Assembly: GCF_016907275.1 (NCBI RefSeq)
Contig: NZ_JAFBBP010000001.1
Location: 1,783,501-1,847,500, forward strand
DNA from: Micromonospora luteifusca
GTDB lineage: Bacteria; Actinomycetota; Actinomycetes; Mycobacteriales; Micromonosporaceae
Direction of reading: 5' to 3'
DNA length: 64,000 nucleotides
Below the pieces are notes generated by a model. It had not been told where the DNA came from, did no database searches, and saw nothing but the letters and a program-made list of their open reading frames with translations. Position numbers and translations under genes: made by a program. Of this stretch, positions 33,401 through 41,785 are shown one piece after another (position 1 is the first letter of the stretch; every line of letters begins with the position of its first letter).

Positions 33401-33552
33401 CTCTCCGCGTCGACCGGGTCCGCCGGGGCTGAACCGACAGCCGTGGTAGGGGTCGCGACGGCAGCGCCGTCGGCAGTGGTGCTCTGGTCGGCGGTTTCAC
33501 CGGCCGGCTGTGAACCGGTCCGTTCGCCGCCCTCGGGCTCGTTCTCGAGCAT
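30481..33552 (-). CDS. rne: Ribonuclease E/G family endoribonuclease
   Basis: The 1023-residue protein has a long disordered, Glu/Ala/Pro and Arg-rich N-terminal region (about 1-430, with RRRRRRRRGAGD-type clusters). The catalytic core follows: an S1 domain with GNVYLGKVQNVLPSMEAAFVDV, the RNase H-like/DNase I-like region with VVDVNTGKYTGSGG and VVIDFIDM, and the Zn-link CECCKGRG. The C-terminus is again Arg-rich. Actinobacterial RNase E has the catalytic domain placed centrally, unlike E. coli. ATG 33552 has GGAGAACG upstream, so the longer frame start is rejected. Confidence 0.94.
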   Translation of the reverse strand: MLENEPEGGERTGSQPAGETADQSTTADGAAVATPTTAVGSAPADPVDAESAEPAAPVRRTRATRRRAAPLNQPEQTDVPIEAPTGDAGGAESPQAEVFAPVSGDLDVAPKTPRRRRKATPVETTAEEPLVAASAEAASAEVVPPVKVTRTRRKKATPAAVEEPPAVEEPVAEEPVAVEEPVAAEEPAESDLREAEAELNDTEAVPSATAAELAWTSGAQERSGEVPPGAAVSGVTDEPNDEVEPEQPRTRRRRAALSAPTVLFMAPQPDAVPVTRPVEPAPVAEEPAAEEAAEPSRRRRRGRREVEPVEVIEVEEEPTEEAEEATEADEDDEDSAAARRRRRRGRRGRGRGKGGADDAEDEESEEAAQVEEEETAEVEAEGDEDDEAEGGDGLTRRRRRRRRRGAGDTEGAADDGVPTVVKIREPRRTVDEVQGVSGSTRLEAKRQRRRDGREQRRTRPPILSESEFLARREAVDRVMAVRQRGDRTQIAVLEDGVLVEHYVTRNSSGTMAGNVYLGKVQNVLPSMEAAFVDVGRGRNAVLYAGEVNWDTSGLEGRARSIEQALRSGDSVLVQVTKDPIGHKGARLTSHIALSGRHLVYVPNGNASGISRKLPDNERKRLRDVLKKLVPDGAGVIVRTAAEGASEDELARDVKRLQAQWEDIQAKAAEGGAPALLYGEPDLVIRVVRDLFNEDFRELVIEGEQSYDIVESYLSHVSPDLVDRVRRHVGTSDVFAEYRIDEQIIKGLDRKVFLPSGGSLVIDRTEAMTVVDVNTGKYTGSGGNLEETVTRNNLEAAEEIVRQLRLRDIGGIVVIDFIDMVLESNRELVLRRLTECLGRDRTKHQVTEITSLGLVQMTRKRIGAGLLEAFSETCECCKGRGVIMHTEPVPEKPRPAGAGEKVKAVASSVAAAPATEQGTASSRRRARKNAPVERAAVEVVDTDTSAVEPDADYQDTMGYDLSRYESDTAAAPAISDSQQGESARLAAADDPDALADGEGDEESAEGGAGRRRSRRGGTRRRTRP

Positions 33553-33683
33553 GGACGTTCTCCAGTTCTGGCTACCCCGGGCGCGTGTGAGCGCTGCCAC
33601 GCAGGGTCGCCGCAAAAGTGTTTCCGCCGGGCGCGCGTGGTGCGCGACCGCCGAAGTCTGCCTGCCAGAGCACGGACCGTCGG

Positions 33684-34496
33684 TCAGTGCCCAACGATGG
33701 TTGCCCCGCCGCGGTCCGCATCCAACGGATCCACGATCGCACCCTGCGCGGTCAACGTGCCCTGAGCCAGCCGGGTCACCCTCGGCGAAACCGGCGGCTC
33801 CAGGTCGGCCACCACGCGGAGGCCGGAAAGGACGTCATCGGGCCGTACGGACGGGGTGACCTGCCGCACGACCAGTTCGAGTATCGCACACGGTACGGCC
33901 GGCGCCCCGGAAGGCGTCGGCGTTGGCGCGAGGACATCGATCGACATCACGGCCGCTCGGGCGTCGAAAGTGCGTCGCCCCTGCTTGGTCATCCGCTCCA
34001 CCAGCACCTCTTCGGCCGCGACAAAAGCGTCGACCGCGGCGCGAAGGACCGCCGTGTCGACCTCGGGCAACTCGATGTGCCAGTGCGACGCCTCGATCCG
34101 GTCCGGAAGGTTGCCGCTTTCGGCGATCACGGCGTCCAACACGTCCAGCCCCGGCGAGAGCGCGGCGTCCAACGCGGCCCGCAACTGCTCCGGGTCGACC
34201 GCCGCCTGAAGACCGATCTCCAGGTACTCCGCCTCGCTCGCCACCCCGGTGGGCGCGGCGCTGGCGTAGGAGATCTTCGGGTGCGGGTGGAAACCCTGGG
34301 AGAAGGCGACAGGTACGGCGGCCCGGCGCAGCGCACGCTCGAACGCCCGGGCGAAGTCACGGTGCGAGGTGAACCGCAACGGTCCGCGCTTGGCGTACCG
34401 GATGCGGACGCGCTGGACGACCGGCGCCTGGCCGCCCTCGGGTTGAGGCTTCTTGGCGATCGTGGGCTCCTCGGGTGTACCTGCGTGTCCGCCCAT
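33684..34496 (-). CDS. TIGR03936 family radical-SAM-associated protein
   Basis: The protein has about 258-270 residues and the family core VQRVRIRYAKRGPLRFTSHRDFARAFERALRR and FSQGFHPHPKISYASA. It is related to the C-terminal domain found fused to the radical SAM protein in clostridia; the biochemical role is unknown. The only standard start, ATG 34496, has no Shine-Dalgarno. A GAGGAG lies 6 bases before an in-frame ATC at 34460, exactly where relatives start MAKK.... The gene sits upstream of rne as usual, but is parted from its TIGR03960 partner by a type VII-like operon. Confidence 0.88.
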   Translation of the reverse strand: MGGHAGTPEEPTIAKKPQPEGGQAPVVQRVRIRYAKRGPLRFTSHRDFARAFERALRRAAVPVAFSQGFHPHPKISYASAAPTGVASEAEYLEIGLQAAVDPEQLRAALDAALSPGLDVLDAVIAESGNLPDRIEASHWHIELPEVDTAVLRAAVDAFVAAEEVLVERMTKQGRRTFDARAAVMSIDVLAPTPTPSGAPAVPCAILELVVRQVTPSVRPDDVLSGLRVVADLEPPVSPRVTRLAQGTLTAQGAIVDPLDADRGGATIVGH

Positions 34497-34598
34497 CCTG
34501 GCGCAGGGCCCGTGACGGTACGCATCCGGGGCGGCCGTCCGGCCCTGGCGAACCGGTTCAAACCGGTCGACACCACCATGATCACGTGCCGGAACGCC

Positions 34599-34640
34599 GA
34601 TGGCCGGCCGGGAGACCCGAAGGTCGTCCGGCCGGCCATC
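34599..34640 (-). terminator. Terminator closing the type VII-like operon
   Basis: Arms 34599-34611 and 34628-34640 (GATGGCCGGCCGG and complement) form a perfect 13-bp stem with a 16-base loop, starting 4 bases after the mycosin stop codon on the minus strand. Confidence 0.8.
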
Positions 34641-34644
34641 ATGA

Positions 34645-36093
34645 TCAGGACCGGTTACCGCTCCCCGGCGGGGCCGGCGGCGGCGCCCCTCCCGGCGGGC
34701 CGTAACCCGGCGGCGCGTAGCCGGACGGTGGGGGGTATCCACCACCGGGCGGGGCGTACCCCGGAGGTGGGGGGTATCCACCACCGGGTGGTGCGTACCC
34801 CGGAGGTGGGGGGTAACCGGACGGCGGCGCGTAACCAGCGCCGGGTGGCGGGTAACCGCCGGGGGGCTCCTGGTCGAGCAGGTGGTCCGGGACGTTGGCC
34901 GCCAGGGCCGCCTCTCGGCGGTACCGACGTCGGTTCCAGATCAGGAACGCCACCAGCCCCAACACCAGCACCAGCACCACGGCGACACCGATGACGATCA
35001 CCATGACCTGCTGGTCCGTGGGGCCACCACGGTCGCCGTGCTGGGTGACGTCGAACTCCTCGGCCGCGTCCGCGGTCTGCGTCGGCGCCGGGTCGGCGGT
35101 CGCGGCGGTCGGGTCGAGCAGCGGGTTCGCGGTGACCGGCGGCACGTTCGCGCTCAGTGCGGTCACCGGGTCGATCAGGCCGAAGCCGTACTGCGGGTCG
35201 CGGCCGGCGGGACCGGCGTCCCGGGCGGTGCGAATGATCCGGTTGATCACATTGGGGGCGTCGAGGTTCGGGTACTTCGATCGGATCAACGCGGCGATGC
35301 CGGCGACGATCGCCGTGGAGTCGGAGGTGCCGTCACCCCAGCCGTAGCCGTTGTCACGGCCGGCGTTGTAGATGTCATCACCGGGCGCGGCGATCACCGC
35401 CTCCGGACCCTGGACCGACCCGGACCAGAACCTGCCGCCCCGGGTCGTCCCGGTCACGGCGATCACGCCGGGGACGTTGGCGGGAGCATCGACCTTGGTG
35501 CTGCCCTTGGCGGTGTTGCCGGCGGCGACCACCACGACGACGTCGTGATCCAGGGCGTACTGGATGGCGCTGAGCTCTGCGGGGGTGGCGGCCGACGGCT
35601 TACCCAGTGACATGTTGATCACCTTGGCGCCACCGTCGACAGCCATCCGGATGCCGAGGCTGACCGGCGCAGCGTCATACGGCGCAGCCTCATCCCTGGA
35701 GGCGTCCAGTTTGATGGGCAGGATCTTCGCACCGGGGGCAATGCCGTCCACGCCGTCCGGGCTGGCGTTCGTCGCCGCGATGATGCCGGCCATGTGCGTG
35801 CCGTGCCCGTGCGTGTCGGTCCGTCCATCTCCGCTGCCGCCGTCACTGCGGCCACCTCGGAGCACCTGCCCCTTCAGGTCCGGGTGGTTGGCGTCGACGC
35901 CGGTGTCGAGCACGGCCACGACCACGCCCCGCCCGGTGGACAGCTTGTGCGCCTGCTCGATCCGCAGCTCGTCCACATACCACTGTTCGGCTCGCCGAGG
36001 TGCCGCGACCGCCGGCTGGGCGGCCCCCAGCACCAGGAGCCCCGCCAGCAGGCAGGCCGCGGCCGGTCGGATCGCTCCGACGTTCACTGTCAT
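34645..36093 (-). CDS. Type VII secretion-associated serine protease (mycosin-like, S8)
   Basis: The 482-residue subtilase has a signal peptide (cleavage near AVA-AP, residue 31) and catalytic Asp63 (VAVLDTGVD), His97 (HGHGTH), Asn193 (AAGN) and Ser257 (GDGTSDST). A C-terminal transmembrane helix at 363-386 is followed by about 95 residues of Pro/Gly/Tyr-rich repeats (GGGYPPPPGYAPP). The layout of periplasmic protease, TM helix and tail is that of mycosins, which process and stabilise ESX systems. The repeat tail is unusually long. GAGGA precedes ATG 36093; the previous gene ends 10 bases upstream. Confidence 0.87.
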   Translation of the reverse strand: MTVNVGAIRPAAACLLAGLLVLGAAQPAVAAPRRAEQWYVDELRIEQAHKLSTGRGVVVAVLDTGVDANHPDLKGQVLRGGRSDGGSGDGRTDTHGHGTHMAGIIAATNASPDGVDGIAPGAKILPIKLDASRDEAAPYDAAPVSLGIRMAVDGGAKVINMSLGKPSAATPAELSAIQYALDHDVVVVVAAGNTAKGSTKVDAPANVPGVIAVTGTTRGGRFWSGSVQGPEAVIAAPGDDIYNAGRDNGYGWGDGTSDSTAIVAGIAALIRSKYPNLDAPNVINRIIRTARDAGPAGRDPQYGFGLIDPVTALSANVPPVTANPLLDPTAATADPAPTQTADAAEEFDVTQHGDRGGPTDQQVMVIVIGVAVVLVLVLGLVAFLIWNRRRYRREAALAANVPDHLLDQEPPGGYPPPGAGYAPPSGYPPPPGYAPPGGGYPPPPGYAPPGGGYPPPSGYAPPGYGPPGGAPPPAPPGSGNRS

Positions 36094-36103
36094 CCGTTCG
36101 TCC

Positions 36104-37600
36104 TCATCGCAGGATGCCCGGGGACGCCCCGTCACCAGGACCCCACGGATCGTCGTCCTCAGTCAACCACGACGAGTGCTCCGAGCCCGTACCACCACCA
36201 CCGCCGTGCCCGGCACCGCCCGCGCCGCCCATCATGCCGCCGCCCATCCCGGCGCCCCCCATCCCGGCACCGCCACGCGCGCCGCCCGCCATGCCGGCGC
36301 CGGCGCCGGCCGCGCCCGCACCCGCGCCGGTGGCGGCGCGCAGCGCGTTCGCCGCGCTCGTCATCGGAGGCACCTTGCCGTTGCCGCCACCCACCATGCC
36401 GGGGATGCCACCCATGCCACCCACGCCGGCACCGCCGCCGGACCCGATCCCGCCGCCGGACCCGATCCCGCCGCCCGCACCAACGCCGCCACCGAAACCG
36501 CCGCCGGCGCCACCGAGGCCGGCACTGCCGAGGCCGCCACCCGCGCCGCCGTATCCGCCGCCAATGCTGCTGGGCGCGGCGCCAGCCAGACCGGTGCTGT
36601 AGCCGTCGTCGACACCCGGATATCCCGAACCGGTGGGCGGAGGTTTCAACGAACCGGCGCCGCCGCCGGTGGAGCCGTCGCCGAGCCCGCTGGACGGGGG
36701 CGGGGAGAACGGTCCCCCCTTGGACGTCGGCCCGCCAGTGAGGTCGGCGCCGATGCCGGGCGGCCTGCTGCCGATGTCCGGACCACCGCCGGTGTCGAAC
36801 CCGCCGCCGATGTTGGGTCGTCCGTTCGGCGGCACCCGATCGTCGGGTCGGAAGTCGTCCGAAATCCTCTCAGGGGGCTCCGGAGGCGGCGCTTCGCCCA
36901 CCACCAGCTTCGGACGCTCGGAGTACACGGCCGCGGGCAGCGGGGACATCGCCGTGTTCGCCGCCTGCTGGTTGTCCTTGTACCAGTTGTCGAGATGGTC
37001 CTTGGTGTCCCACCAGCCGCCCCGCTTGTGGTCGTCGGCCTGGCCGTCGACCTTCATGGTCGCCTCCAGGTCGTCGGCCTTGTCGCGGAACGCGCCATCG
37101 GCGTACGACCCGGGGTTGCTCTGGTAGTCCTTGCGCAGCGCGGCGAGGAAGCCCGACGCGCTCTCGCCGTCCCGGGCGTCGCCGAGGTCGGTGCCGTTGG
37201 GCAGGCTCCAGTTGTTGATGCCGAAGTCGTCCATCAGCGGGACCGGGATCGTGGCGACCACCTTGCGGATGTCCGTCTCGATCCGCGCCAACGCGCCGCT
37301 GACGTTCGTCGAATCGGTGATCAGATCCTCGATCTGCTTACCGATCTGACCCAGATGCTCGCGGTAGGCGTCACCGCCGCTGCCCTTCCAACCGGCGAGC
37401 ATCCCGGGCAGGCCACCGACGTGCGGGCGCTCCTGACCTGTGGCGATCGGGCCGACGAACGATCGGCCGACGAGCGCGTCCCGCAGCTGCGTCAGGCCGG
37501 AGGAGAGGTTGCCCCACCCCTGCCCGACCGATCCGACCGTCTCCGGGTCGGCGGAGAGCGTCACCTCGCGGACGCACCGCTCCCAGCTTCCTTCAGCCAT
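36104..37600 (-). CDS. WXG-fold N-terminus with long Gly-rich C-terminus, ESX-type protein
   Basis: The 498-residue protein has a helical N-terminal half including Trp71-Lys-Gly73 (AGWKGSGGDAYREHL), the WXG turn with a downstream Tyr, as in WXG100/PPE-like ESX substrates. The region 230-345 is Pro-rich; 345-475 is almost only Gly, Ala, Met and Ser (PE_PGRS-like composition). The C-terminus ends SSWLTEDDDPWG..., resembling the terminal motif of other actinobacterial Gly/Pro-rich WXG proteins. GAGGGGGAC precedes ATG 37600. It is the middle gene of a tight operon ahead of the mycosin. Confidence 0.8.
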   Translation of the reverse strand: MAEGSWERCVREVTLSADPETVGSVGQGWGNLSSGLTQLRDALVGRSFVGPIATGQERPHVGGLPGMLAGWKGSGGDAYREHLGQIGKQIEDLITDSTNVSGALARIETDIRKVVATIPVPLMDDFGINNWSLPNGTDLGDARDGESASGFLAALRKDYQSNPGSYADGAFRDKADDLEATMKVDGQADDHKRGGWWDTKDHLDNWYKDNQQAANTAMSPLPAAVYSERPKLVVGEAPPPEPPERISDDFRPDDRVPPNGRPNIGGGFDTGGGPDIGSRPPGIGADLTGGPTSKGGPFSPPPSSGLGDGSTGGGAGSLKPPPTGSGYPGVDDGYSTGLAGAAPSSIGGGYGGAGGGLGSAGLGGAGGGFGGGVGAGGGIGSGGGIGSGGGAGVGGMGGIPGMVGGGNGKVPPMTSAANALRAATGAGAGAAGAGAGMAGGARGGAGMGGAGMGGGMMGGAGGAGHGGGGGTGSEHSSWLTEDDDPWGPGDGASPGILR

Positions 37601-37610
37601 GACGTCCCCC

Positions 37611-38051
37611 TCAGGCCGTGTACGGGTAGGTGGGCGCGCCGCCGGCAGCAGGCGGCGGCGCCGCCGACTCGAGCAGCCGCTCGATCTCCTTGCCGGTGGC
37701 GGCGTTGCGCGCTTCGGTGTTACGGAACGCCTTGGCGATGTCCTCGGTGCCCTGCTTCAGCCCGGCGAGATTCTGGGAGAGCGTCCTGAGGTGCATCTCC
37801 ATGTTGGCCGTGGAAGTGGTCAGCGCCTGCCACTGCATGCGGGCGTCCTCGTAGGCGCCGAAGGGGGTGCCGTTCGGGACGGTCTGGGCGTTGTTGCTGT
37901 CGCCCTTCATCCGCTCCTTGACGCGTTCCATCTCGTAAAGGATGGTGTCGTCGACGTACTGCTTCAGCCGCTCGACGTACGCCGCCGCGGCGTCCAGGTC
38001 CTCGACGCTGACTTGTAGATCGCCGGTGTTCGGCGGCGGAATGGTCCCCAT
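37611..38051 (-). CDS. Small helical ESX/WXG100-superfamily-like protein
   Basis: The 146-residue, nearly all-helical protein (VEDLDAAAAYVERLKQYVDDTI...MEMHLRTLSQNLAGLKQGTEDIAKAF) has a short Pro/Gly-rich tail. Size, helical hairpin pattern and neighbours suggest a WXG100-superfamily partner of the next gene, although no WXG tripeptide is present (MQWQAL takes the turn region). The start ATG 38051 has GGAGGAAG. It opens the three-gene operon; gaps to the next genes are 10 bases each. Function is inferred from context. Confidence 0.7.
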   Translation of the reverse strand: MGTIPPPNTGDLQVSVEDLDAAAAYVERLKQYVDDTILYEMERVKERMKGDSNNAQTVPNGTPFGAYEDARMQWQALTTSTANMEMHLRTLSQNLAGLKQGTEDIAKAFRNTEARNAATGKEIERLLESAAPPPAAGGAPTYPYTA

Positions 38052-38218
38052 CAGCTTCCTCCCCCGTTCCCGACCCACCGGGTCGGTCCATGTCAGACGC
38101 AGCGTATCGAGTCTGACCCAGTCGGGGCAGCCCCAGCCACCGTCACACCGCGCAGTCGTCGTCGATGCCGACGAGGGTCGCGGGGTCGACCGTTGCGGGC
38201 TGTGCAGGCCGACCAGCG

Positions 38219-38249
38219 CCAACGGGCCCGCGAGACGCGGACCCGTTGG
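38219..38249 (-). terminator. Terminator between TIGR03960 gene and type VII-like operon
   Basis: Arms 38219-38231 and 38237-38249 form a 13-bp stem with one mismatch and a 5-base loop, 62 bases after the radical SAM stop codon on the minus strand. It isolates the downstream operon, so that operon needs its own promoter within about 38052-38218. Confidence 0.7.
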
Positions 38250-38311
38250 GTGACATGTCGGATGTGGAGTTTAGTGGTGCATCGCCGCCCGGCGCTGCCC
38301 TGGACGGGCGG

Positions 38312-40360
38312 TCAGTGGGAGTGGCCGGCTGCCGGGACCTTCATGCCGCTGCCGCCCAACGGGGTGAGCGGCAGCAGCTTCTTACCGGTGGGGCCGATCT
38401 GGATCTCGGTGTCCATCGATGGGCAGACGCCGCAGTCGAAACAGGGCGTCCACCGGCAGTCGTCCTGCTCGAACTCGCTGACCGAGTCCTGCCAGTCCTG
38501 CCAGAGCCAGTCCTTGTCCAGGCCCGAGTCCAGGTGGTCCCAGGGCAGGACCTCCAGCTCCTCGCGCTGCCGGGTGGTGTACCAGTCGAGGTCCACCCCG
38601 AACGCGGGCAGCGTCTCAGCAGCCGCGTCGACCCAGCGCTGGTACGAGAAGTGCTCGCTCCAACCGTCGAAGCGACCGCCGTTCTCCCACACCTTGCGGA
38701 TCACCGAGCCGACCCGACGGTCGCCCCGGGAGAGCAGCCCCTCGATCAGCGACGGCTCGCCGTCGTGGTAGCGGTAGCCGATGGCCCGGCCCAGCGAGCG
38801 GTCCGAGTTGATCGCCTGCTTGAGGATCTTCAGCCGGTGGTCGATGACCTCCGGACGCTCCATCGACGCCCATTGGAAGGGGGTGTGCGGCTTCGGCACG
38901 AACCCACCGATGGAGACCGTGCAGCGGATGTCCTTGGAGCCGGTGGCGGCCCGACCGGCCTTGATCACCTCGTGGGCCATCTCCGCGATCTCGAGGACGT
39001 CCTCGTCGGTCTCGGTGGGCAGGCCGCACATGAAGTAGAGCTTCACCTGCCGCCAGCCGTTGGTGTACGCGGTGACGACGGTGCGGATCAGGTCTTCCTT
39101 CGTCACCATCTTGTTGATGACCTTGCGGATCCGCTCCGATCCGCCCTCCGGGGCGAAGGTCAGGCCGGTCCGCCGCCCGTTGCGGGACAGCTCCTGCGCG
39201 AGGTCGATGTTGAAGGCGTCCACCCGGGTCGACGGCAGCGACAGCGAGACGTTCGTGCCCGCGTACTGCTCGGCGAGGCCCGAGCACATGTCACCGATCT
39301 CGGAGTGGTCGGCCGAGGAGAGCGACAGCAGGCCCACCTCGTTGAAGCCGGAGAACTCCAGGCCCTCGCGGACCATCTGGCCGACCGTGGTGATGGACCG
39401 TTCCCGCACCGGACGGGTGATCATGCCCGCCTGGCAGAACCGGCATCCCCGGGTGCAGCCCCGGAAGATCTCCACCGCGTACCGCTCGTGCACCGTCTCG
39501 GCCAGCGGGACGAGGGGCTTCTTCGGGTACGGCCAGGCGTCCAGGTCCATCGTCGTGCGCTTGTGCACCCGGAACGGCACGTCCGCCCGGTTCGGCACGA
39601 CCCGCTGGATCCGCCCGTCCGGGAGGTAGTCGATGTCGTAGAAGCGCGGCACGTAGACGCTCTCGGTCCGCGCCAGCCGCAGCAGCAACTCGTCGCGGCC
39701 ACCCGGGGAGCCCTCGGCCTTCCACTCCCGGACGATCGCGGTGATCTCCAGAACCGCTTCCTCGCCGTCGCCGAGGACCGCGGCGTCGATGAAGTCGGCG
39801 ATCGGCTCCGGGTTGAACGCGGCGTGCCCGCCGGCCAGGATCACCGGGTCGGCGTCGGTGCGGTCGGCCGCCAGCATCGGGATGCCGGCCAGGTCGATCG
39901 CGGTGAGCATGTTGGTGTAACCGAGCTCGGTGGAGAAGGAGATGCCGAACACGTCGAAGTCGCGGACCGCCCGGTGCGCGTCGACGGTGAACTGCGGCAC
40001 GCCGTGCGTGCGCATCAGGGTCTCCAGGTCCGGCCAGACCGCGTACGTCCGCTCGGCGAGGGTGTCGGGCAGCTCGTTGAGCACCTCGTAGAGGATCTGC
40101 ACGCCCTGGTTGGGCAGGCCCACCTCGTAGGCGTCGGGATACATCAGTGCCCAGCGCACGGTGGCCGCGCCCCAGTCCTTGGTCACGGCGCCCAGCTCGC
40201 CCCCGACATATTGGATGGGCTTGGAGACCTGGGGCAGCAGCGGCTCGAGCTGGGACCAGACCGACGGCTCCAGGTCGCGGCGCTGCGTCAGAGGCGCCGA
40301 GCTGGAGTCGTCGCGAGAGTCGGTCGCGGCCGCGCGCGGCGTCGGGGACGTGGCACTCAT
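38312..40360 (-). CDS. TIGR03960 family B12-binding radical SAM protein
   Basis: The 682-residue protein has an N-terminal B12-binding-like region (YPDAYEVGLPNQGVQILYEVLN), the radical SAM cluster motif RGCTRGCRFCQAGM (CxxxCxxC), GGSERIR-type substrate segments, and C-terminal Cys residues (CFDCGVCPSMD) suggesting a second metal site. The product is unknown. It is usually adjacent or fused to the TIGR03936 protein, which here lies 3.8 kb downstream. ATG 40360 begins MSATSPTPRAAA. It is divergent from a Pro-rich membrane protein across 78 bases. Confidence 0.93.
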   Translation of the reverse strand: MSATSPTPRAAATDSRDDSSSAPLTQRRDLEPSVWSQLEPLLPQVSKPIQYVGGELGAVTKDWGAATVRWALMYPDAYEVGLPNQGVQILYEVLNELPDTLAERTYAVWPDLETLMRTHGVPQFTVDAHRAVRDFDVFGISFSTELGYTNMLTAIDLAGIPMLAADRTDADPVILAGGHAAFNPEPIADFIDAAVLGDGEEAVLEITAIVREWKAEGSPGGRDELLLRLARTESVYVPRFYDIDYLPDGRIQRVVPNRADVPFRVHKRTTMDLDAWPYPKKPLVPLAETVHERYAVEIFRGCTRGCRFCQAGMITRPVRERSITTVGQMVREGLEFSGFNEVGLLSLSSADHSEIGDMCSGLAEQYAGTNVSLSLPSTRVDAFNIDLAQELSRNGRRTGLTFAPEGGSERIRKVINKMVTKEDLIRTVVTAYTNGWRQVKLYFMCGLPTETDEDVLEIAEMAHEVIKAGRAATGSKDIRCTVSIGGFVPKPHTPFQWASMERPEVIDHRLKILKQAINSDRSLGRAIGYRYHDGEPSLIEGLLSRGDRRVGSVIRKVWENGGRFDGWSEHFSYQRWVDAAAETLPAFGVDLDWYTTRQREELEVLPWDHLDSGLDKDWLWQDWQDSVSEFEQDDCRWTPCFDCGVCPSMDTEIQIGPTGKKLLPLTPLGGSGMKVPAAGHSH

Positions 40361-40438
40361 GATGCCCAAGGGTACGCGCCCGCCCGGCGGTGGCGGCACG
40401 GTACTAACCTCGGACCGGCGCGAGAGGAGATTGCCGCG

Positions 40439-41785
40439 ATGCCCGAGCCCCAGCCGGGAGCACGGCCGGCCGACGGGAGCACCCCGGGCGCGGAGCCGGA
40501 CCGGGATCCGGCGGCCGCCGACGAGCCGACCTCCCCACCCGTACCCTCGGACCAGCCGGAACCCTCGGCGCAGCCCGACACTCCCGACCAGCCGGAAGCC
40601 TCGGACCGGCCGGAACCCCCGACGCAGCCCGACACTCCGGAGCAGCCGGAACCCTCGGACCAGCCGGAACCCCCGACGCAGCCGGAGACTCCGGAGCAGC
40701 CGAAATCCTCGGGCCAGTCCGAGGCCGCCGCCACCGTGGAGGCCCCGGCGCCCAGGTGGAGCGGCTCGGCGCCGGTGCCGCCGCCGCTGCCGCGCCGACC
40801 GGTCTGGGGCGAGTCGGCCGAGCCGACCCCGCCGCCGCCCGTGCCGGTCGGCTCGCCGGAGCACCAGACCCCGGTCGACCCGTGGGCCGGTGTGGACACC
40901 GGCGGCTGGGACCTGCCGTCCGCCGAGTTGCCCCCGCTGCCCCCGACAGTGCCCTACCCGACGCCGCCGGCGACCCGGCAGTGGTCCGGTCCGCCCGCTC
41001 CCCCGGTCGGGTCGCACCCGGTGTCTCCGGCGGTCGGGTCGCATCCGGTGTCTCCGGCGGCCGCCCCAAGGCCACCACAGGTCACCGGGCCGCGGATCCC
41101 GGCCCGGCCGATGTCGCCGCCCGCACCGCCGCCGGCAGCGCCGAAGCAGCGCCGGGGCCGTCGATCCGCCACGCCGCCGGTGGCGCCGCCGCCGGGCTGG
41201 CAGGCCCCCAAGGGGTACGTGCCGGTGCCGGTGCGCCGACGTCGCCGCTGGCCGTGGTTCCTGCTGCTCACCCTGGCCTGCTGCTGTGGCTGCCCCGCCT
41301 ACTACGGGTTCCCGATCTCGGCCCAGTACCCGGCCCAGGCCGCACTGCCCGCACAGGTGGACGACCTGAGCCTGCGCCAGGACAACCGCAGCGCGGAGAC
41401 CGCCCAGCAACTGGAGAGCGAGGTCCGCAAGGAGCACTGGCTGGCCGAGGACACCTTCGCCGGTGTCTACTCCACCTCACATGGCAAGCAGGTGACGGTC
41501 TTCGGCGGCACCGGCTTCCGGCTGAACCCGGAGTCCGACGCGGACGCCGAGATCAGCCGGCTCACCGAGCGCTACGCGCTGGACGCCCCCGAGAGCGTGG
41601 ACACCGGTGTGCGGGGCCGGCACGAACGATGCGCGGTCGGCCGGTCCGATGGCGGCGACGTGGTGGTCTGCACCTCGGTTGACTACGGCAGCATCGCCAC
41701 CGGGGTGTTCACCCGGCTCTCCGTCGCCGACAGTGCCGCCCTGCTGGCCACCCTGCGCGCTCAGATCGTCCAGCCCAAGGGCTGA
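40439..41785 (+). CDS. Pro-rich single-pass membrane protein with FGGT extracytoplasmic domain
   Basis: The 448-residue protein has about 270 disordered residues including three copies of an 18-residue unit like QPDTPEQPEPSDQPEPPT. A basic cluster (VPVRRRRRW) precedes one transmembrane helix (PWFLLLTLACCCGCPAYYGF), then about 145 extracytoplasmic residues with VTVFGGTGFRLNPESD and paired Cys (RCAVGRS...VVCTSVDYGS). The C-terminal domain is clearly related to that of the protein at 59503-60189. The function is unknown. ATG 40439 has GAGAGGAGA upstream. Confidence 0.8.
   Translation: MPEPQPGARPADGSTPGAEPDRDPAAADEPTSPPVPSDQPEPSAQPDTPDQPEASDRPEPPTQPDTPEQPEPSDQPEPPTQPETPEQPKSSGQSEAAATVEAPAPRWSGSAPVPPPLPRRPVWGESAEPTPPPPVPVGSPEHQTPVDPWAGVDTGGWDLPSAELPPLPPTVPYPTPPATRQWSGPPAPPVGSHPVSPAVGSHPVSPAAAPRPPQVTGPRIPARPMSPPAPPPAAPKQRRGRRSATPPVAPPPGWQAPKGYVPVPVRRRRRWPWFLLLTLACCCGCPAYYGFPISAQYPAQAALPAQVDDLSLRQDNRSAETAQQLESEVRKEHWLAEDTFAGVYSTSHGKQVTVFGGTGFRLNPESDADAEISRLTERYALDAPESVDTGVRGRHERCAVGRSDGGDVVVCTSVDYGSIATGVFTRLSVADSAALLATLRAQIVQPKG

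Follow-up and report, generated by a model that had tools for sequence, protein, structure and literature searches.

We have analyzed a stretch of 64,000 nucleotides of the Micromonospora luteifusca genome (contig NZ_JAFBBP010000001.1), hereafter the window, in whose positions all coordinates are given. Our subject is a cassette of three minus-strand genes, separated by 10-base gaps and located between the genes of the radical SAM families TIGR03960 and TIGR03936: T1, coding for a small helical protein, T2, coding for a long protein with a WxG turn, and a gene for a mycosin, an S8 protease. The strand, lengths and spacing of the three open reading frames (ORFs) given in a preliminary description of this DNA were borne out by their coordinates. 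The explanation that we favor, tentatively and at slightly less than an even chance, is that the locus is an accessory ESX (type VII secretion) cargo module acquired horizontally, in which a PE/PPE-like pair comes with its own mycosin and makes use of an ESX machine resident elsewhere in the genome. As that description had stated, there is no Ecc gene among the five ORFs profiled in or beside the locus; the eccC that it proposed to look for elsewhere does exist, with three EccC genes over the cut-off in the host genome, all away from the cassette. That the cassette works with a remote machine is better supported than that it works alone.

The resemblance to exported ESX proteins is clearest in T2 (36104..37600, minus strand), with 498 residues instead of the approximately 100 expected of the WXG100 / ESAT-6 family. 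It has a PPE/WXG-like N-terminal domain, a Gly-rich linker and a conserved C-terminal tail. In the alignment the WxG turn (W71-K-G73; 37382..37390, minus strand) sits between predicted helices 19-44 and 74-117, and the whole of residues 1-230 is a predicted WxG hairpin. The best structural matches of this hairpin include PPE4, PPE15, PPE41 and EsxA; with the three PPE proteins T2 aligned over 158-160 residues in the structure comparison, and profile matches were found to EsxA (1.3e-6) and PPE41 (0.018). Two prolines after the hairpin, P119 and P121, are conserved in the alignment, and 4 of 20 T2 rows match the PPE family (PF00823) at E <= 0.01, the best at 2.8e-4. The C-terminal half is of low complexity, rich in Gly and without a domain match, and ends in SSWLTEDDDPWG...SPGILR. 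The tail TGSEHSSWLTEDDDPWGPGDGASPGILR (36107..36190, minus strand) is encoded in all of the 46 filled loci described below even though the linker varies, and it is in frame with the N-terminus in 45; the remaining locus, in genome G244, has a frameshifted T2. A scan of the host genome for WLxED[DE] gave three matches, two of them at T2-type tails, but this count alone is uninformative because a reversed control pattern also gave three.

T1 (37611..38051, minus strand) codes for 146 residues. ORF, alignment and AlphaFold model together suggest a PE/EspC/Esx-like ESX substrate partner: a predicted hairpin of helices 16-48 and 68-130 (mean predicted local distance difference test score, pLDDT, 76) with a (Y/F)xxxExxN motif, in which E113 and N116 are invariant in the 24 aligned T1 rows. 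In the window the first part of this motif, residues 109-113 (FRNTE), is encoded at 37713..37727 (minus strand) according to the alignment. Tyr is found at the first position in 11 rows taken from loci of other genera, as well as in a paralogue at locus L057 of the same genome.

The third gene (34645..36093, minus strand) scores 295.6 bits on the TIGR03921 equivalog model for mycosins (cut-off 278.75). The protein has 482 residues from an ATG, or 496 from a longer GTG start, with a signal-like N-terminus, the catalytic domain, one transmembrane helix and a C-terminal tail of about 100 residues rich in Pro, Gly and Tyr. The N-terminus is hydrophobic and a segment near the C-terminus has a mean hydropathy of 3.4 (from hydropathy only, with no dedicated predictor); an N-terminal signal peptide and a C-terminal membrane anchor are mycosin features in the available part of PMC10924467. 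The catalytic Asp63, His97 and Ser257 are present, and the D, H and S align in 46 of 46 cassette mycosins, of which a narrow Ser motif alone detects only 28. Thus the mycosin triad, the WXG turn (Trp71-Gly73) and the Gly-rich tail of T2 that had been noticed previously were confirmed, and the helical hairpins proposed for the two smaller proteins are predicted by the models for both T1 and the T2 N-terminus. When mycosins were labeled "core" or "T2" from their gene neighborhood, a Pro/Gly/Tyr-rich tail of at least 61 residues behind the membrane helix was found in 9 of 13 T2-linked mycosins, while 7 of 9 others had tails of 24 residues or less. The exceptions are four T2-linked mycosins with tails of 11-32 residues (one of them, at L063, cut at its alignment end) and two others with 72-94, so that the long tail appears as a tendency of the T2-linked set and not as a rule. 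A single separate clade of T2-linked mycosins was unsupported (3 changes on the 22-row tree, approximately unbiased test p 0.0465).

We then compared the locus across 160 Micromonospora genomes. The N-terminal part of T2 was matched at E <= 0.001 in 62 of them, strongly (at least 316 bits) in 59 and weakly in 3; only the 59 are called insert-bearing here, excluding the weak rows and a T2 fragment found elsewhere in the own genome. The flanking genes were present in 160 (TIGR03936) and 158 (TIGR03960) of the 160 genomes. Counting genomes with both flanks on one contig and among the best ~150 matches listed for each, the insert lay between the flanks in 46 of 46 insert-bearing genomes, and 87 of 89 insert-free genomes had a gap of 152-370 bp between the flank matches. 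Among the other 13 insert-bearing genomes, 12 had one or both flanks within ~3 kb on the same contig, and in G259 neither was among the matches listed. We retrieved 100 of these loci, the 46 filled ones and 54 of the 89 empty ones, drawn at random without G143 and G171. The full trio is encoded at the same site in all 46 filled loci, which excludes a chance arrangement, and the 54 empty loci had no match to any part of the trio at 1e-20. The survey was extended to the family, where 56 of 61 genomes searched carried TIGR03936; the best 30 of these, minus 2 with the insert, gave 28 insert-free loci. TIGR03960 was located within 1.5 kb upstream in 22 of them and not in 6, and no mycosin was found at any. 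Since the insert-free loci of the family mostly keep the two flanking genes linked and none has a mycosin, the arrangement is a derived one within this family. The preliminary description had proposed flanks that are normally adjacent and a module that was acquired and then fixed. The adjacency and the acquisition hold, with an insert found only patchily between adjacent flanks; fixation does not, with the insert in 59 of 160 genomes and a clear secondary loss.

This loss is found in G182, an empty locus placed within the second of two groups of filled loci (I and II). It retains 46 bases of the mycosin end, including the stop codon, followed by the right flank of filled loci (187 of 216 positions identical, score 279 against a maximum of 62 in 50 shuffles), which we take as a deletion scar. 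A 14-mer of the mycosin end occurred at up to 2 mismatches in 6 of the 54 empty loci; of the four aligned, only G182 was above shuffles, and the remnants in G168, G225 and G144 were not. G130 retains part of the filled flank (65/74) and G270 a weaker piece (87/118). In G237 and G173, which stand beside group I in the tree, no such scar was seen in the sequences inspected, and not every empty locus is a proven loss. In the flank tree the 46 filled loci form groups of 21 and 25 rows; no fewer than 5 changes are required, and well-supported branches force 3 of these. This tree of 100 genomes was built from the flanking genes TIGR03960 and TIGR03936, which may themselves have moved together with the insert, and all our trees are quick ones except the 22-row mycosin tree. 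The unlinked EccC genes, a rough check only, separate the groups as well: with the EccC1 or EccC2 of M. luteifusca, several insert-free genomes share 93-95% identity and group II 86-90%. In the cassette tree group I adjoins G161 of group II (95*).

The right flank (34461..34644, minus strand, including GCGCCAGGATGGG) travels with the insert. With up to 2 mismatches allowed, all 46 filled loci have a 13-mer from it, as do 3 of the 54 empty ones, and the second codon of TIGR03936 is GCC in 46 of 46 filled and 4 of 54 empty loci. Because the filled loci share both, the insert would have one right edge and probably spreads by recombination via the flanks. At the same site G129 carries a cassette whose three genes are all only 57-62% identical; the members of the trio move together. 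Neither an integrase nor a transposase is among the five ORFs profiled in or beside the locus, and searches of 72,556 plasmid and 50,697 phage records gave no match to the T2 N-terminus. The ratios of nonsynonymous to synonymous change (dN/dS; 21 pairs, 7 genomes) were 0.34 for T1, 0.19 for the T2 N-terminus and 0.36 for the mycosin, with 0.09 for TIGR03960 as a comparison, values that indicate purifying selection on the three cassette genes.

Relatives of the trio are found inside ESX loci. In L068 and L075, from two genomes of one other genus of Micromonosporaceae, EccC and an Esx pair are directly followed by T1, T2 and the mycosin, in this order. By profile, L068 contains EccC (995 and 895 bits), EccD (264) and two WXG100 proteins over the cut-off, and its T2-linked mycosin (255.5 bits) is under the cut-off of 278.75. 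These trios agree with that of the window in gene order and in the type of T2 tail, but they are located in or near an ESX locus and are 23-44% identical per protein, whereas the window trio is an orphan within a radical SAM pair. In L074 the trio lies ~5 kb from an EccC-like end and an Esx-like pair (as judged by gene order, the profile check having been made on L068), and in Longispora albida (L061) it follows a WXG100 pair of which one of two is over the cut-off. A named scan gave 39 loci, 36 in Micromonospora, 1 in Longispora and 2 weak ones in Amycolatopsis.

The cassette mycosin lies outside any ESX locus, ~0.98 Mb from the nearest EccC above the cut-off. Of the resident machines ESX-A (L057, ~3.747-3.760 Mb) is complete, with EccB (301 bits), EccC, EccD (226), two WXG100 proteins (EsxA/B) and a mycosin. 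It also carries a distant T1/T2-like pair, which shares 19-20% identity with that of the window and has TWLTEDEMVW at the end of its T2 member. The EccC of ESX-A (EccC1) was detected, at an identity of at least 83%, in all 59 insert-bearing and in 48 of 101 other genomes (Fisher 2.5e-14), and relatedness accounts for much of this association. EccC2 (at least 80%, one partial) is found in 57 of the 59, being absent from G177 and G215, and EccC3 in 4. Only the EccC of ESX-A occurs in all insert-bearing genomes, which points weakly to ESX-A as the partner machine. L057 and L058 each have a mycosin over the cut-off, and there is none in the 19.9 kb around EccC3 (L059), the nearest sub-threshold match being ~20 kb away. 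That the EccC3 machine borrows the cassette mycosin was rejected, since EccC3 (at least 55%) occurs in only 9 of the 160 genomes, of which 4 bear the insert and 5 lack it.

Several further elements of this kind were seen in the own genome. L262 (~4.0329-4.0360 Mb) is a second, very different orphan trio, consisting of a 152-residue protein with YADSD, a T2-like protein with HWDPDNPWETEKGVAPVVRP in its tail and a mycosin below the cut-off (256 bits). L261 (~3.6029-3.6046 Mb) has two small ORFs, WXG-like by eye, beside an over-cut-off mycosin, with no over-cut-off EccC match in the 19.5 kb around it. A lone T2 fragment (L060:5689-5943, ~5.8017 Mb), 63-69% identical within residues 75-168, is apparently a remnant of another copy.

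According to the explanation that we favor, T1 and T2 would form a dimer to which T1 contributes a YxxxE-like export motif and T2 the WxG/PPE-like hairpin. The pair would probably be exported together by a machine encoded elsewhere, most likely ESX-A, and the Gly-rich region of T2 would then end up within the cell wall or at the surface of the hyphae. Held at the outer side of the membrane, the cassette mycosin would gate or process T2 in the way that MycP1 acts on EspB, and the conserved tail (WLTEDDDPWG...PG[IV]LR) could be a signal for sorting or docking that either the machine or the mycosin recognizes. A wider proposal is possible though rather doubtful: the trio may be a transferable plug-in, and the tail WLxED(D/E)xxWG...P(G/P)x(V/I)L an undescribed type VII sorting or mycosin-recognition signal present in both orphan and ESX-linked PPE-like proteins of Micromonosporaceae. 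If this were true, mycosin-substrate pairs could be read from genomes.

A number of observations weigh against the cargo module. T1 has no significant match in Pfam, NCBIfam or PDB sequences to the PE or Esx families: it reaches 17.1 bits on the WXG100 model TIGR03930 (cut-off 44.85), and the PE family (PF00934) was listed for none of the 24 T1 rows at E 0.01, nor for the window T1 at E 1. YxxxE is an ESX export signal, and T1 deviates from it by a Phe in place of the Tyr in the window, in P0059 (Melissospora) and in all 46 cassette T1 genes. Foldseek placed Esx chains on top for T1 but with E 0.4 at best and among unrelated coiled coils, and T1 was not assigned as an Esx or PE protein. T2 misses the curated WXG100 cut-offs (PF06013, 17.3 versus 27.3 bits; TIGR03930, 13.5 versus 44.85), the window T2 has no PPE (PF00823) match, and its model (mean pLDDT 69) gave no Foldseek match at E <= 0.001. 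On supported branches the association of EccC1 with the insert comes down to 3 independent contrasts, each of them either neutral or in the same direction, and is not significant. ESX-A already holds its own mycosin, and that of the cassette is therefore not needed for assembly. The pairing and export of T1 and T2 and the cleavage by the mycosin are all predictions. Finally, in the accessible part of PMC5082899, mycosins are needed in mycobacteria for the stability of the ESX-1 and ESX-5 complexes, protease activity is dispensable for secretion, and EspB is the only mycosin substrate known as of 2016.

This structural role of mycobacterial mycosins also speaks for an unlikely alternative, in which the cassette mycosin joins or replaces the resident one and alters the exports of the machine, T1 and T2 being linked but uncleaved cargo. 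The mycosins of L057 and L058 and their absence around EccC3 count in its favor too. It is at odds with the catalytic Asp, His and Ser kept in every cassette mycosin, and the long tail of most T2-linked mycosins, compared to the short one of most others, hints at a different job. Very unlikely, in our opinion, is a cell-envelope system independent of ESX, in which the mycosin would be exported via Sec and T1 and T2 would be cytosolic or released by lysis. The lack of an Ecc gene at the locus and a trio that is whole in 46 of 46 loci would fit, but T1 and T2 have an ESX-type fold and motifs, similar trios lie inside ESX loci, and EccC1 accompanies the insert in every genome that bears it.

The cassette could also be an evolutionary remnant of an ESX locus that drifts without function and is gained and lost at random, which we consider quite unlikely. 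Such a decay would explain the patchy presence, the scar in G182, the frameshifted T2 of G244 and the T2 fragment of the own genome; it would not be expected to leave dN/dS values well under 1 in all three genes, a conserved upstream box and tail, and a T2 whose N-terminus and tail share a reading frame in 45 of 46 loci. Among the effectors that type VII systems export, a WXG- or LXG-like head followed by a variable C-terminus is frequent, and T2 could accordingly be taken as the effector of an ESX-delivered polymorphic toxin/immunity cassette. This is scarcely credible and T2 is disfavored as a toxin: its Gly-rich C-terminal half has no domain match, the tail is nearly invariant and not polymorphic, and the third gene codes for a protease and nothing immunity-like.

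As a cargo module, the trio can be compared with known systems. In the mycobacterial pairs PE5-PPE4, PE25-PPE41 and PE8-PPE15 the gene of a small helical protein is directly upstream of a WxG-bearing PPE-like gene, as in the cassette, and T2 aligns with PPE4, PPE15 and PPE41 and keeps prolines after the hairpin. Some PPE and PE_PGRS proteins have a glycine-rich C-terminal extension similar to that of T2. The differences are the lack of an over-cut-off PE or PPE Pfam match and a T1 of 146 residues with a long second helix; also, we know of no PPE protein with the tail WLTEDDDPWG. EspB is a single chain with both PE- and PPE-like parts, which the trio splits across two genes. It is among the structural matches of T2 and, in the portion of PMC5082899 at hand, is a PE/PPE-like exported protein of ESX-1 processed by the mycosin MycP1; the cassette differs in being ~1 Mb from the nearest over-cut-off EccC. 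Like the ESX-4-type clusters of non-mycobacterial actinomycetes, the host has EccB, EccC, EccD, an Esx pair and a mycosin. According to the available part of PMC4791881, pe and ppe genes joined an ESX that mycolic-acid bacteria carried on a plasmid. The PPE-like pairs found here lie outside this group, and PE/PPE-like pairs there fit awkwardly with a first addition on a plasmid within it. In the titles or abstract openings listed from the literature on mycosin/PPE in Micromonospora, Streptomyces and type VII we found no such trio. The trio bears on how ESX machines choose their substrates: it combines a PPE-like protein with a mycosin, is naturally present in some genomes and absent from others, has an empty site that is known, and occurs in a host whose resident machine is intact, which makes mycosin-substrate pairing and tail recognition testable in soil actinomycetes.

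At the locus itself, the flanking genes exceed their NCBIfam cut-offs, TIGR03960 (B12-binding radical SAM; 38312..40297, minus strand, the region matched by the hidden Markov model, its start unfixed) with 688.8 bits and TIGR03936 (33684..34460, minus strand) with 192.1. Hairpins at 38219..38249, 3' of the TIGR03960 gene, and at 34599..34640, 3' of the mycosin, both on the minus strand and terminator-like without a T run, had been described as bounding the cassette. Both are indeed more stable than shuffles (z -5.1 and -5.3, 200 shuffles each), and the strong hairpin at the end of the TIGR03960 gene also folds in 4 other loci displayed. A GATACGCT box (38101..38108, minus strand), possibly the -10 part of an own promoter, lies 49 nt upstream of T1; except for G129, all insert-bearing loci (45 of 46) have it 42-50 nt upstream. 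Because of the hairpins on either side and this conserved box, the trio appears to be transcribed as a separate unit. A sigma-70 scan gave 0 sites and a simple T-run terminator scan 1, neither above shuffles, and the latter picked up neither hairpin; Rfam had no match in 33500-40500.

Other contents were seen at the same site. The insert-free genomes G143 and G171 have a different 2.2-kb stretch in the TIGR03960-TIGR03936 gap, filled by another gene of 556-611 residues (L067:2762-4432 and L066:2635-4470, respectively), that of L067 having no Pfam or NCBIfam match; the gap may be an insertion hot spot. In G255 an extra 2 kb between TIGR03960 and T1 (L114:4511-6571) holds more ESX-type cargo, namely an EspC-like protein (YRTMEE) and a PPE-like WxG protein, both sub-threshold, together with two YbaB-type genes over the cut-off. 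G188 and G228 have a similarly enlarged distance. Second T2 copies, 74-76% identical, occur elsewhere in G194, G138 and G127 (L063, L064 and L065), with no T1 match at 1e-4 and followed by a mycosin in L063 and L064.

The TIGR03936 gene seems to start with ATC (34458-34460). In all 100 Micromonospora loci this codon follows GGAG at a distance of 6 or 7 nt; 42 loci have no ATG, GTG or TTG before the upstream in-frame stop, and in only 19 of the 100 does one occur within the next 39 codons. At the same place 30 loci of the family, 3 of them from the genus, have ATC in 20 (one codon on in L250), ATT in 4, and in 5 an ATG or GTG, either there or at the next codon, L253 being ambiguous. A conserved AUC/AUU start is known from infC, and by analogy that of TIGR03936 would suggest translational control.

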